56,996 nt of DNA from NCBI GenBank assembly GCA_009835735.1, contig VXWX01000051.1, positions 1 to 56,996 of the forward strand, in the 5' to 3' direction. A program made the position numbers and the translations under genes. This stretch comes from Acidimicrobiaceae bacterium (GTDB taxonomy: Bacteria > Actinomycetota > Acidimicrobiia > Acidimicrobiales > Aldehydirespiratoraceae). Below the pieces are notes generated by a model, which made no database searches, was not told where the DNA came from, and worked only from the letters and a program-made list of their open reading frames with translations. Positions 1 through 3,190 of the stretch are shown piece after piece (within the stretch, counting starts at the first letter, position 1; every line of letters begins with the position of its first letter).

Positions 1-412
1 CATCCCACCCGCCCACTTCGGCGATCACCCGCTCAAAGCAGTCGACGCACTCGTCAAAATGGACGCGCATCACCAAACCGGGCGGCCGAATCGTAGGCGG
101 GAACCGAGCGTCAAGAAGGTTGTCCAGGTGCTCAAAGCGTCCGCGATGGTTCTCGACGAAGACGAGACGTGTCTGAGTGCCATAGCGCGTCACATCGCTC
201 CGCAGCGCTTGTTCCATCGCGATCACCGGCGAACTCTCTTGGGCGTTGGTGTACTCCCCTGGACCCGCGAAGCCGTCGAAGAACGTGATCCCGTCGCCGC
301 GGAACTGCTTTGCCATGATGGGAAACCACGCTGACATGTAGCGGCGCAGCAGCGTGTGTTTCGCTTCCGTGTGGGGGTCACGCTCCCAGACGATCTCGGT
401 TGGAACGGCCAA
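1..412 (-). CDS. tcmP: Three-Cys-motif partner protein TcmP (N-terminal part, cut by window edge)
   Basis: I translated the minus strand from a TTG at 412 to the window edge and obtained about 137 residues with no stop. The N-terminus reads W-E-R-D-P-H-T-E-A-K-H, and FFDGFAGPGEY follows at residues 44-54. This is the signature of TcmP, the family named for its adjacency to three-Cys (Gp37/Gp68) proteins. The FAGPG segment resembles SAM-binding motif I of Rossmann-fold methyltransferases, and VFVEN further on could be motif II, so a methyltransferase-like fold is inferred; activity is unproven. The gene starts 4 nt after the stop of the three-Cys gene, so the two are almost certainly cotranscribed. 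No strong Shine-Dalgarno is visible at the TTG. The C-terminus is outside the window. Confidence 0.82.
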   Translation of the reverse strand, partial: MAVPTEIVWERDPHTEAKHTLLRRYMSAWFPIMAKQFRGDGITFFDGFAGPGEYTNAQESSPVIAMEQALRSDVTRYGTQTRLVFVENHRGRFEHLDNLLDARFPPTIRPPGLVMRVHFDECVDCFERVIAEVGGWD

Positions 413-416
413 TGGG

Positions 417-1163
417 TTAGGCCGCTGCCTCTTGTGGGAGCTGGTCCCACACTTCGCCCTCGAGTTCTCGGCCACCTGCCTTGGGGGTTCTGCCTCCCCA
501 CTGCTTGAAGAAGAACGCAACACCCGCTGACGTGCAGGTGTCGCGCAGCTCGATCGCCCATGCAGGCTCCATGGGCCGTGCGTTGGCACCGGATTCGCCG
601 CCGGCGATCAGCCATTGGATGCCCTCAAGATCGAGTGCGCCGAGTGGGCCGAGAAGGGGTTCGGCGCTTACGAACCGCACCGCTGCCGGAACCTTGCGAA
701 GGTGATTGATGCGGAAGGCGTACCGGCGAGACTCCACGCTGACGCCCATCCACAGGTTCGGCGGCCAGTCGAGCTCACCTGCTGAGCGGCTTAGCCGCTG
801 CGCTCGCTTGGTGAGCAGCTGGTAGGTGTGCTGCGGCGTGTCTCGGATCACCTCGAAGACCTGCTTGATGAACTCGAGCGGCACGTCGTCGTGGAAGAGG
901 TCGCTCATCGAGTCCACGAAGACGAGCCGCGGTGCGCTCCAGCGACGAGGCACGTCAAGCGATGAGGCGTGCAGCGTGAGCCGGAAGCCCGGTCCACTCG
1001 TCCTCGGGTCGCCATCGAGCTGGTACTTCGGCGAGCCCATCGCCTTGAGTCGCTTCGACAGCGTGAGCGCGTAGCAATGATCGCACCCCGGGGATACGCG
1101 GTCACAACCGGTGGTCGGGTTCCACGTTGCCTCGGTCCACTCGATCGCCGACTTGTCAGCCAT
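417..1163 (-). CDS. Phage Gp37/Gp68 family (DUF5131) three-Cys protein
   Basis: A protein of 248 residues. Near the N-terminus, WNPTTGCDRVSPGCDHCYA carries Cys20, Cys27 and Cys30 in a C-x6-C-x2-C spacing. This resembles, but is not, the radical-SAM CxxxCxxC cluster. Later segments FVSAEPLLGP, GGESGANARPM and FFFKQWGG are family hallmarks. An iron-sulfur or radical-SAM-like role is inferred from the cysteines; the reaction is unknown. I chose the ATG at 1163 because a TACATT box sits 7 nt upstream, matching the leaderless pattern seen elsewhere in this window. A TTG nine bases upstream is the alternative. TcmP follows after 4 nt. The phage name reflects homologues only; no prophage genes are present here. 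Confidence 0.85.
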   Translation of the reverse strand: MADKSAIEWTEATWNPTTGCDRVSPGCDHCYALTLSKRLKAMGSPKYQLDGDPRTSGPGFRLTLHASSLDVPRRWSAPRLVFVDSMSDLFHDDVPLEFIKQVFEVIRDTPQHTYQLLTKRAQRLSRSAGELDWPPNLWMGVSVESRRYAFRINHLRKVPAAVRFVSAEPLLGPLGALDLEGIQWLIAGGESGANARPMEPAWAIELRDTCTSAGVAFFFKQWGGRTPKAGGRELEGEVWDQLPQEAAA

Positions 1164-1170
1164 GCCTCTC

Positions 1171-1176
1171 AATGTA
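1171..1176 (-). promoter_or_regulatory. Leaderless -10 box (TACATT) for the DUF5131-tcmP pair
   Basis: Read on the minus strand, TACATT is followed by 7 nt and then the ATG at 1163. This TANNNT box with 6-8 nt to a start codon recurs at many first-of-operon genes in this window. It implies that the three-Cys gene and TcmP can be transcribed independently of the DUF488 gene upstream. Confidence 0.5.
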
Positions 1177-1258
1177 AGGCCATCGTGTGACAGTCAGAAA
1201 ATTGGACTTGTCAGGCCTACGCCTTTAGAGGCTGGACGACATCAGGCGAGTGCCTTGA

Positions 1259-1708
1259 TCACCTAAGCCGCGGTAGGTGGAGCGCTCTGACGCCTGGCCA
1301 ATGGGTGCCGAGATACTCGACGATGAGCCGTCGGTGACATTGCGCCGCGGTGTGTTCGCTGCACAGCAGTACTGATCGCGGACTAAAGAACTCGGGTGAC
1401 AGCGCTGTCTCGATGCTTCGTCTAGCAATGAGGTCCAAGAATCGGTTCTCGTAGTCGTCCCAGGTGATCTCGCGATTCCGGTAGGTCTTGAACAGGTCCG
1501 CGGTGGGCGCCAGCAGGCGCGGCTCGTGGACGTAGCCGATGCCGTGCAACTCCAAGAAGTAGAGAAGGTCGTCACGCTTGGCAAAGCCGGCGAGCTGGCT
1601 CACATTGTTCAGGCGGACATCGATCAGCTTCTCGACGCCCTCAGCCGTCAGGATGCCAAAGAACTCTCGTGCGGAATGTTTGGTGAAGCCAATCGTGCAG
1701 ATCTCCAC
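1259..1708 (-). CDS. DUF488 family protein
   Basis: A 149-residue protein. It begins MEICTIGFTKHS, continues with LIDVRLNN and LLYFLELHGIGY, and ends with a Cys/His segment LLCSEHTAAQCHRRL. This is the usual architecture of the small DUF488 family, whose biochemical function is not established. The GTG start has a clear Shine-Dalgarno (GGAGG) 7 nt upstream. The SD is half of a perfect inverted repeat (GGAGG-AA-CCTCC) that may mask it. It lies 95 nt upstream of the DUF5131 gene on the same strand. Local GC is visibly lower than in neighbours (33 of 60 bases in one line I counted), which suggests that the three-gene cassette was acquired. Confidence 0.85.
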   Translation of the reverse strand: MEICTIGFTKHSAREFFGILTAEGVEKLIDVRLNNVSQLAGFAKRDDLLYFLELHGIGYVHEPRLLAPTADLFKTYRNREITWDDYENRFLDLIARRSIETALSPEFFSPRSVLLCSEHTAAQCHRRLIVEYLGTHWPGVRALHLPRLR

Positions 1709-1898
1709 GGAGGTTCCTCCTCGAAGCGAGAGAGTTGGCTAGGACCGTCGAGGTCGCGGCTCAGTTGCCTTTCGTCCCCAACGCGGCGGTCGCCAAGGAT
1801 GTGCGTGACCTTCGGTGGCCGTTGAGGCCATCACACTGACAAGTAAAGCACCCTTGTGACGATGCTTGGGAACCACCTGTGGAGCTGTAGGGCGGCGG

Positions 1899-1904
1899 TA
1901 ACCT
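1899..1904 (+). promoter_or_regulatory. Leaderless -10 box (TAACCT) for hisS-aspS
   Basis: TAACCT preceded by GG and followed by 8 nt to the GTG at 1913. It is part of the recurrent GGTANNNT-N6-8-start pattern. No convincing -35 hexamer was seen. The rest of the 204-nt gap between the DUF488 start and hisS shows nothing else I can name. Confidence 0.5.
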
Positions 1905-1912
1905 CGGGGGTC

Positions 1913-3190
1913 GTGGCCCAGCCCTTGTTCCGCGCCCCCGCGGGCACCCGCGACCTCCTGCCGCCGGAGTCGGCGAGGCGGCGCCGGCTGGTGGCCGTGT
2001 TCGCCGATCTGGCCGAGCGGACCGGCTTCGGTCTACTGGAGTCGCCCATCTTCGAGGACCTCGGAGTGTTCCAACGGCTCGGTGAGTCGAACGACGTGGT
2101 CACCAAGGAGTTGTTCGAGTTCTTCGACAAGGGCGACCCGCCCCGCCACCTGGCTCTTCGCCCCGAGTTGACGGCCAGCGTGTGCCGGGCGTTCGCCGAG
2201 CACCGGCCGACGCCGCCGTGGAAGATCTGGTACTCGGGGCCCCAGTTCCGCTACGAGCGGCCTCAGGCCGGCCGCTACCGGCAGTTCGACCAGGTCGGGG
2301 TGGAGACCCTCGGCACCGACGACCCCCACGCCGACGTCGAGGTGATAGGGCTGGGCGCGCGGTTCTACGAGGCCCTGGGCATGAAGCAGGTGCGTCTGCT
2401 GGTCAACTCTCTTGGTGACTCCGAGAGCCGTCCTGCCTACGACGCCGCTCTGGCCGGCTACCTCCAGAGCCGACGAGGCGAGCTGTCCGCGCAGTCCCGT
2501 GTCACCCTGGAGCGCAACCCGCTGCGGGTGCTCGACTCAAAGCGGGAGCAGGACCAGCCGGTGATCGCGGAGGCGCCTCTGATGGCCGACTTCCTGTCGG
2601 GCGAGTCGGCTGACCATTTCGCAGCCGTGTTGGCCGGCCTCGACAGCTTGGGTGCGGCCTACGAGGTGTCGCCCCGGCTGGTGCGCGGCCTCGACTACTA
2701 CACCCGCACCACCTTCGAGTTCGTGGCCGACGCCCTCGACACCGCCCAGAACGCGGTGGGCGGCGGCGGGCGCTACGACGGGCTCGTCGAGGAGCTGGGC
2801 GGGCCCCCGACGCCGGGCATCGGCTTCGCCCTCGGGGTGGACCGCATCCTGCTGGCCTGCGACGCCGAGGGAGCCTTGGTCGAGACCGCCTCTCCGGTGG
2901 AAGTGTTCGTGGTGGACACTGCCGGCGGCGAGAGCGCAGTGGTGCTCTGTGACCGGCTCCGGCGGGCCGGCCTGGGCGTGGACCGGGCCTTCGACGCCCG
3001 GTCGATGAAGGCCCAGATGAAGCGAGCCGACCGCTCGGGGGCGGCCGTCGCGGTGATCGTCGGACCCGACGAGGGGGCCGCGGGCACGGCCACAGTGCGC
3101 GACATGCGCCCCGGTGGGGGCCAGCGTCAGGTGCCGAGCGACGACGTGGTGTCGGCGGTGACGGGTCTGCTGGCGGGAGAAGCTCCGTGA
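1913..3190 (+). CDS. hisS: Histidine--tRNA ligase
   Basis: A 425-residue class II aminoacyl-tRNA synthetase that charges tRNA-His in the cytoplasm. It opens with the family-typical FRAPAGTRDLLPPE. Motif 2 is QFRYERPQAGRYRQFDQ, the histidine-specific HisA motif is RGLDYYTRTTFE, and motif 3 is GIGFALGVDRI. A C-terminal anticodon-binding domain follows (about residue 330 onward). The frame is open further upstream, but homology begins at GTG 1913, which also has a TAACCT box 8 nt before it. Length is normal for the family. The stop overlaps the aspS start by 4 nt, so the two synthetases form an operon, as is common in actinobacteria. Confidence 0.96.
   Translation: MAQPLFRAPAGTRDLLPPESARRRRLVAVFADLAERTGFGLLESPIFEDLGVFQRLGESNDVVTKELFEFFDKGDPPRHLALRPELTASVCRAFAEHRPTPPWKIWYSGPQFRYERPQAGRYRQFDQVGVETLGTDDPHADVEVIGLGARFYEALGMKQVRLLVNSLGDSESRPAYDAALAGYLQSRRGELSAQSRVTLERNPLRVLDSKREQDQPVIAEAPLMADFLSGESADHFAAVLAGLDSLGAAYEVSPRLVRGLDYYTRTTFEFVADALDTAQNAVGGGGRYDGLVEELGGPPTPGIGFALGVDRILLACDAEGALVETASPVEVFVVDTAGGESAVVLCDRLRRAGLGVDRAFDARSMKAQMKRADRSGAAVAVIVGPDEGAAGTATVRDMRPGGGQRQVPSDDVVSAVTGLLAGEAP

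Follow-up and report, generated by a model that had tools for sequence, protein, structure and literature searches.

The first 1.7 kb of a 56,996-nucleotide stretch of Acidimicrobiaceae DNA (contig VXWX01000051.1 of assembly GCA_009835735.1; hereafter the window) carry three minus-strand genes next to the housekeeping gene hisS, encoding the N-terminal part of a TcmP protein, a DUF5131 protein with three clustered cysteines and a DUF488 protein. The original prediction correctly recognized this same-strand trio and joined it into one three-part module; we find that the window holds a further member of a known candidate pair, TcmP–DUF5131, together with what is left of another known candidate system, PDC-M45. 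The interpretation that we favor, with moderate confidence, is that of a modification-type defense pair lacking a nuclease of its own beside a PDC-M45 remnant, the two representing separate acquisitions in one slot.

TcmP and DUF5131 constitute a self-contained two-gene unit that is distinct from DUF488 and corresponds to the PADLOC candidates PDC-M30 and PDC-M41. In PADLOC-DB, DUF5131 scores 352 bits with PDC-M41B and 336 bits with PDC-M30B, values that do not by themselves separate the two systems, and the window TcmP scores 58.5 bits with PDC-M30A; its orthologue at L038 reaches 128 bits with PDC-M30A and 32 bits with PDC-M41A. L038 and a further locus, L039, are the counterparts of the window's hisS locus in two more assemblies of Acidimicrobiaceae. 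Both components of PDC-M30/M41 are thus encoded side by side in the window, which differs from these systems in that its TcmP is cut by the contig end and is flanked by the leftover of another system.

A profile survey of 396 genomes of the phylum yielded 47 DUF5131 matches in 43 genomes, 39 of which had one over the family cut-off, and 39 stretches around other copies of the gene, many of them cut by contig ends, were taken after setting aside the two copies of the window's genome, five sub-threshold matches and the second piece of one gene. TcmP accompanies DUF5131 in 24 of the 29 strong loci (L118-L146, at least 279 bits; 1.7 kb apart in L132), in none of the ten weaker or partial ones (L147-L156, at most 144 bits) and in 54 of 80 viral loci, which are the best 80 of 322 found in viral contigs, so that the partnership with the three-cysteine protein implied by the name of TcmP is borne out. 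Neither DUF488B nor DUF488C nor DuOB, the three parts of PDC-M45, was found in any of the 39 phylum stretches, and a DUF488 match near viral DUF5131 is limited to one weak case (25 bits) among the 80 loci. Moreover, the window's genome encodes a second, complete TcmP–DUF5131 pair on contig C157 (L005:7119-10428) that has no DUF488, and no DUF488 besides the copy studied here was found in this genome. When the surroundings of 21 of the 25 TcmP-bearing genome loci were surveyed (the 24 above plus L005, four on very short contigs being omitted), no third gene or nuclease recurred beside the pair: the commonest family, PIN, accounts for 4 of 105 neighbors, chosen from 114 by dropping nine of at least 900 amino acids.

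The reverse comparison, starting from DUF488, gives the same picture. The window protein belongs to the DUF488 family (PF04343, 74 bits; cut-off 22.2), has no sequence-matched solved relative and matches component C of PDC-M45 over essentially its full length (188.5 bits over positions 1-144 of 145); the Cys/His segment originally noted in it corresponds to the motif CSEHTAAQCHRR, which is retained. The other parts of this system are a second DUF488 protein (B) and a protein named DuOB by Pfam (A). Among the best 80 of 224 DUF488C loci from genome contigs, a sample that includes loci at contig ends and from which the component profiles were also built, 63 contain B, C and A, seven C and A, five B and C, four C alone and one B only; DUF488B and/or DuOB hence lie beside DUF488C in 75 of the 80. 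DUF5131 and TcmP are found in three: L038, L039 and a Sorangium locus (L096), where the pair is on the opposite strand about 2 kb from DUF488C.

These distributions make a true module of DUF488, DUF5131 and TcmP very improbable, even though the three genes share a strand and are tightly packed both in the window and in the orthologous L038 and L039: of the DUF5131 loci, none of the 39 from the phylum and one of the 80 viral ones has such a DUF488, two of the three DUF488C loci with the pair are this same locus, the second pair of the genome does without DUF488 and the pair is exchanged separately. A lack of co-occurrence in other genomes, which the original prediction had itself named as speaking against its module, is what the samples display. 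As a recurrent arrangement the module is rejected by its distribution in the sampled loci; it is conceivable only as a local recruitment.

Comparison of the window with L039 points to independent movement of the pair. The two sequences are 97.5% identical over window positions 1-1196, a block that includes the pair, ends within the promoter-like stretch and encodes a TcmP part with 100% amino acid identity, whereas identity falls to 82% in the DUF488 block and to 90% in hisS; correspondingly, synonymous divergence (dS) is 0.12 for DUF5131 and 0 for the TcmP part, versus 0.61 for DUF488C and 0.29 for hisS. Because the identity of the pair far exceeds that of both DUF488 and hisS, the TcmP–DUF5131 pair has been exchanged on its own, separately from DUF488.

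The slot itself is seen most clearly in L038, where the space between hisS and a RelA/SpoT gene contains DUF488B, DUF488C, DuOB, DUF5131, TcmP and a gene weakly resembling HSDR_N (24.9 bits against a cut-off of 25.1). In both L038 and L039 the pair follows the triad with the same orientation; the stretch between DUF488C and DuOB of L038 includes Ns as well as long runs of G and of C that make its exact length unsure, and an internal stop interrupts the DuOB frame of L039. In relatives the junction carries no insert and relA neighbors hisS: all 13 same-order relatives with a hisS locus have relA on its upstream side (from a set of 14, of which G080 returned no hisS locus; the junction of same-family G263 lies outside this survey), with a gap of about 0.4 kb in one. 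Within the class, the same order is seen in 19 of 29 loci, the hisS query used for the survey having begun at window position 1916. The insertion slot would accordingly be the space between relA and hisS, of which the window itself displays the hisS side and L038 both, and two unrelated acquisitions would share it. Two further features of these loci were noted. About 1.3 kb between DuOB and DUF5131 of L039 (L039:5184-6514) are not in L038 and include a frame that looks transposase-like by eye, and a degenerate second hisS 5' end (L038:5064-5337, 71% identity to window 1823-2095), located between DUF488B and the real hisS, is perhaps a scar left by the insertion.

Of the PDC-M45 triad, whose three frames are all present in orthologous L038, only component C is intact in the window. 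DUF488B is reduced to a severed C-terminal tail matching residues 137-192 of the L038 protein (78.6% identity over 56 residues, tblastn E 8e-25), 37 residues of which lie upstream of the DUF488C start while the last part overlaps that start in another frame; DuOB is gone save for possible last codons, the alignment of window 1-1258 with L038 8660-7401 reaching the region of the DuOB stop. DUF488C is therefore best read, from this comparison, as the leftover of a DUF488B–DUF488C–DuOB operon whose partners were deleted: deletions would have removed DuOB and all of DUF488B but its tail, leaving DUF488C in frame. We regard it as doubtful, albeit worth considering, that DUF488C is a solo gene retained after partner loss rather than debris. 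Such retention would be in line with its in-frame reading frame, Shine-Dalgarno sequence and preserved motif, with a ratio of nonsynonymous to synonymous divergence (dN/dS) of 0.28 between the window and L038 versus 0.20-0.21 in the other two comparisons, with the four of 80 loci that have C without B or A (one at a contig edge, two from one genus) and with a homologue beside uvrB on an Aeromonas plasmid whose gene table is incomplete; however, the natural stop and last residues of DUF488C were lost at the deletion junction, and L038 retains both partners in open frames, as does L039 except for the internal stop in DuOB. The plasmid homologue (L275:5001-5432) is encoded by the conjugative Aeromonas caviae plasmid p1, has 54% identity and no annotated partners.

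DUF5131 (PF07505, 329 bits) is most likely a radical-SAM-type (SAM, S-adenosylmethionine) enzyme with a putative iron-sulfur site. The C-x6-C-x2-C cluster originally described in this protein is made by C20, C27 and C30, which all 72 aligned homologues share and which immediately precede a helix starting at residue 31. A confident AlphaFold model (predicted local distance difference test (pLDDT) 91, 72 sequences) has as its four best Foldseek matches entries of spore photoproduct lyase, a radical-SAM DNA repair enzyme (E 4.8e-3 to 9.7e-3, probability 0.99-1.00, TM-score around 0.5); lower matches include lipoyl synthase, AprD4, 7bi7 (whose title refers to FeMo-co assembly) and MiaB, intermixed with barrel enzymes of other kinds and with designed TIM barrels.

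TcmP, in turn, is most likely a class I SAM-dependent methyltransferase-like partner. The window protein matches TIGR04474 with 78.7 bits over the first 125 of 263 positions and contains the FAGPG motif previously pointed out as methyltransferase-like, and the full-length orthologue (L038:8249-9334, 361 amino acids) was used for modeling (53 sequences, pLDDT 81, weak beyond approximately residue 270). Sequence-matched solved relatives are at chance level only. The model has a Rossmann fold and matches 70 PDB entries at E <= 0.001; by title, those listed (50) are mostly methyltransferases, with some spermidine synthases. The best is RlmJ, a 23S rRNA adenine-N6 methyltransferase (E 2.5e-7), from which TcmP differs in its low identity (13%; TM-score 0.42 by query and 0.53 by target), altered motif IV and extra C-terminal part; the C-terminus of the L038 protein scores 28.2 bits with the winged-helix family GMT-wHTH (cut-off 27), so that TcmP of this lineage probably ends in a winged helix. 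Motif I is retained (D46 in 51 of 53 sequences, G50 in 53 of 53), and motif IV, in a region outside the cut copy of the window, is mostly DP[FY]G, with D145 in 52 and the proline in 43 of the 53 and with D-G-W-G in L038. Amino-methyltransferases usually have (D/N/S)PP(Y/F/W) at this position. The structure predictions that the original prediction had suggested for both proteins return a methyltransferase-like and, weakly, a spore photoproduct lyase-like fold.

Taken together, the two proteins would act jointly, the radical-SAM-type DUF5131 and TcmP altering bases of invading phage nucleic acid, more likely DNA than RNA, and the altered bases would make infection fail without a dedicated nuclease. 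The direction given by the original prediction, nucleic acid modification or anti-phage defense, is in this sense kept as a putative function.

The phage context of the pair is consistent with such a role. By tblastn, 161 phage records contain DUF5131, with identities of 60-80% in 19, and 11 records were opened. In all six Gordonia phages opened at about 70% identity (Jablanski, BaxterFox, Easley, Fairfaxidum, Angelique and Bosnia), the pair lies between the integrase and the immunity repressor, with a TcmP profile match in each; except in Jablanski, TcmP comes right after the gene for the repressor, on the repressor's strand. Defense genes are reported, in an excerpt of PMC5559632, to adjoin integration/immunity cassettes, where they lie beside the cassette and not inside it like the TcmP–DUF5131 pair, and an excerpt of PMC6426606 describes a Gordonia prophage defense pair co-expressed with its repressor. 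The other five records, Bipper, Confidence, prophiGD43A-5, Bakery and phi3LM21, have DUF5131 at 41-55% identity and no TcmP.

This context also bears on a self-modification role, in which the pair would mark the DNA of the prophage or host, protecting it from restriction, and not that of invaders. We consider this unlikely: TcmP-less DUF5131 genes do sit among replication or recombination genes (Bipper, Confidence and Bakery), sometimes near DNA methylases, and no nuclease recurs next to the pair, but the TcmP-paired form is grouped with genes for integrase, repressor and M78 peptidase, a setting that should be active during lysogeny, and the pair is also found in bacterial genomes, here at a housekeeping locus, and in the PADLOC candidate set. 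Specifically, the commonest neighbor families of 26 TcmP-paired viral loci (a random draw from the 54, with neighbors picked by mechanical choice of open reading frames) are M78 peptidases, repressor-type helix-turn-helix proteins, integrases and recombinases; the 94 neighbors of the 26 TcmP-less viral loci include three N6_N4, two D12 and one MT-A70 methylase matches, some of which may share proteins. This comparison covers the 25 most frequent families out of 40 and 50, respectively, so that the paired set may hide single methylase matches.

DNA-modifying enzymes also occur near TcmP-less DUF5131 in the phylum. In L128, from genome G263 of the same family as the window's, HMUDK_hel, the helical domain of 5-hydroxymethyldeoxyuridine DNA kinases (332.8 bits), is encoded 150 bp from DUF5131, and the surroundings (L128:1-12000) contain Nmad2, ThsB (Thoeris TIR-like), the type I restriction-modification genes HsdS/HsdM and an Aga-HEPN/Ymh-like gene; an N6_N4 methylase is found in L124, an Eco57I-type methylase in L138 and a C5 methylase 0.6 kb away in L144. 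It is quite unlikely, in our estimation, that the pair instead modifies tRNA or rRNA during infection and thereby stops translation. That the closest fold of TcmP is a 23S rRNA methyltransferase and that MiaB is among the weaker DUF5131 matches speak for RNA, while these neighboring enzymes, the DNA repair enzyme at the top of the DUF5131 list and the weak winged-helix match of TcmP suggest DNA. More tentatively, DUF5131 could be a radical-SAM-type enzyme common to a family of DNA base-modification cassettes that are exchangeable, acting with TcmP as a nuclease-free defense that is lethal through altered phage bases and elsewhere with DNA methylases or with HMUDK_hel, a thymine-hypermodification enzyme; we place this broader idea well short of probable. 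HMUDK_hel as a frequent DUF5131 partner was rejected, since it occurs in only 5 of 396 genomes and in one of them beside DUF5131. The L128 island itself is possibly a DNA hypermodification cluster on a bacterial contig.

Several observations weigh against a radical-SAM–methyltransferase defense pair. No Foldseek match of DUF5131 reaches E 1e-3 (root-mean-square deviation 6 Å for the best), enzymes outside the radical SAM group occupy ranks 5 and 6, no solved structure matches the protein by sequence and Pfam Radical_SAM is not matched at E <= 1. Radical SAM mobile pair protein A (TIGR04471), an NCBIfam radical-SAM relative whose name one phage record gives to a homologue alongside that of DUF5131, is matched with 76.6 bits, far under the cut-off of 355, over a part that excludes the cysteines. 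The spacing of the latter is non-canonical for radical SAM and differs from the CX3CX2C of spore photoproduct lyase. The earlier statement that the protein "resembles, but is not, radical SAM" holds with respect to this spacing and the missing Pfam match, and is too strong in view of the four best structural matches, all of a radical-SAM enzyme. In addition, motif IV of TcmP departs from the usual amino-methyltransferase form and the window copy is incomplete; TcmP-less DUF5131 of phi3LM21 lies between a CI repressor and an integrase, blurring the contrast in context; for the five strong phylum loci that lack TcmP, neighbors were chosen by eye ahead of the scan, one or a few per locus, and the single one scanned in L136 is a regulator. 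Finally, PDC-M30 and PDC-M45 are candidate systems only: an excerpt of PMC10855318 describes PDC systems as putative and without experimental validation, and reports that, among 100 P. aeruginosa strains, 32 carry PDC-M30 and 68.8% of these are phage-resistant, a correlation only.

Base composition sets the locus apart. Positions 1-1708 have a GC content of 0.620, the lowest value among 553 tiles, each 1.7 kb long, that average 0.698 (s.d. 0.017), and GC at third codon positions is 0.76-0.78 in the DUF488, DUF5131 and TcmP genes versus 0.90 in hisS; the low GC, with the insertion at the relA-hisS junction of orthologous L038, agrees with the original suggestion of acquisition. Base 1 of the window is base 1 of its contig (C69 of a draft genome in 167 contigs), which cuts the TcmP reading frame so that it cannot be extended in the current assembly; the TTG of TcmP and the end of DUF5131 lie side by side. 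Sequences that could serve as the separate signals proposed earlier are also present: DUF488 starts behind its own Shine-Dalgarno sequence, and a by-eye reading places a promoter-like TACATT ending 7 nt ahead of the DUF5131 ATG, a position that fits a leaderless start, with CTGACT upstream across a 15-nt spacer. This stretch is kept in L038 and L039, where TTGACT replaces CTGACT, and not at the second pair of the genome.

Table 1. Features at the left edge of the window and the adjacent hisS gene.
Feature	Position	Strand	Remarks
TcmP, N-terminal part	2..412	-	137 amino acids, TTG start at 412; class I methyltransferase-like, motif D-G-F-A-G-P-G
DUF5131 (phage Gp37/Gp68)	417..1163	-	248 amino acids, ATG start; C-x6-C-x2-C; predicted radical-SAM-like fold
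Putative leaderless promoter of the DUF5131–TcmP unit	1164..1200	-	Read by eye
Possible last codons of deleted DuOB (PDC-M45A)	1240..1258	-	Weak, about 12 nt; alignment with L038
DUF488C (PDC-M45 component C)	1259..1708	-	149 amino acids; GTG start behind GAGGAGG
Severed C-terminal tail of DUF488B (PDC-M45B)	1651..1818	-	tblastn with L038 M45B
hisS, right-hand neighbor of the insertion	1856..3190	+	Listed open reading frame

No paper testing the function of TcmP, DUF5131 or DuOB was found among the matches listed from the open-licence literature, preprints excluded, and the libraries searched hold no functional annotation for TcmP or Gp37/Gp68. In the excerpts concerned, TcmP is only listed in tables (PMC12445080, PMC12429752), a DUF488-HTH fusion is mentioned (PMC12704722) and other PDCs are mentioned (PMC12482510); PDC-M30 is named a single time in PMC11878078. 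Against this background, the cassette position, the predicted folds and the DNA-modifying enzymes close to some TcmP-less copies turn an anonymous pair into a hypothesis testable with laboratory phages, and the locus illustrates how the decay of one candidate defense system can let it and a neighboring candidate pass for a single system.

The arrangement of the pair varies elsewhere. DUF5131 and TcmP are often convergent, with ends that may overlap, and still adjacent (L122, L126, L129, L131, L134, L139, L142, L145 and 21 of the 80 viral loci). At L005, TcmP is nearer to PDC-M41A, and an HNH gene and a Hypoth_Ymh gene adjoin the pair; Hypoth_Ymh adjoins DUF5131 in L128 as well.

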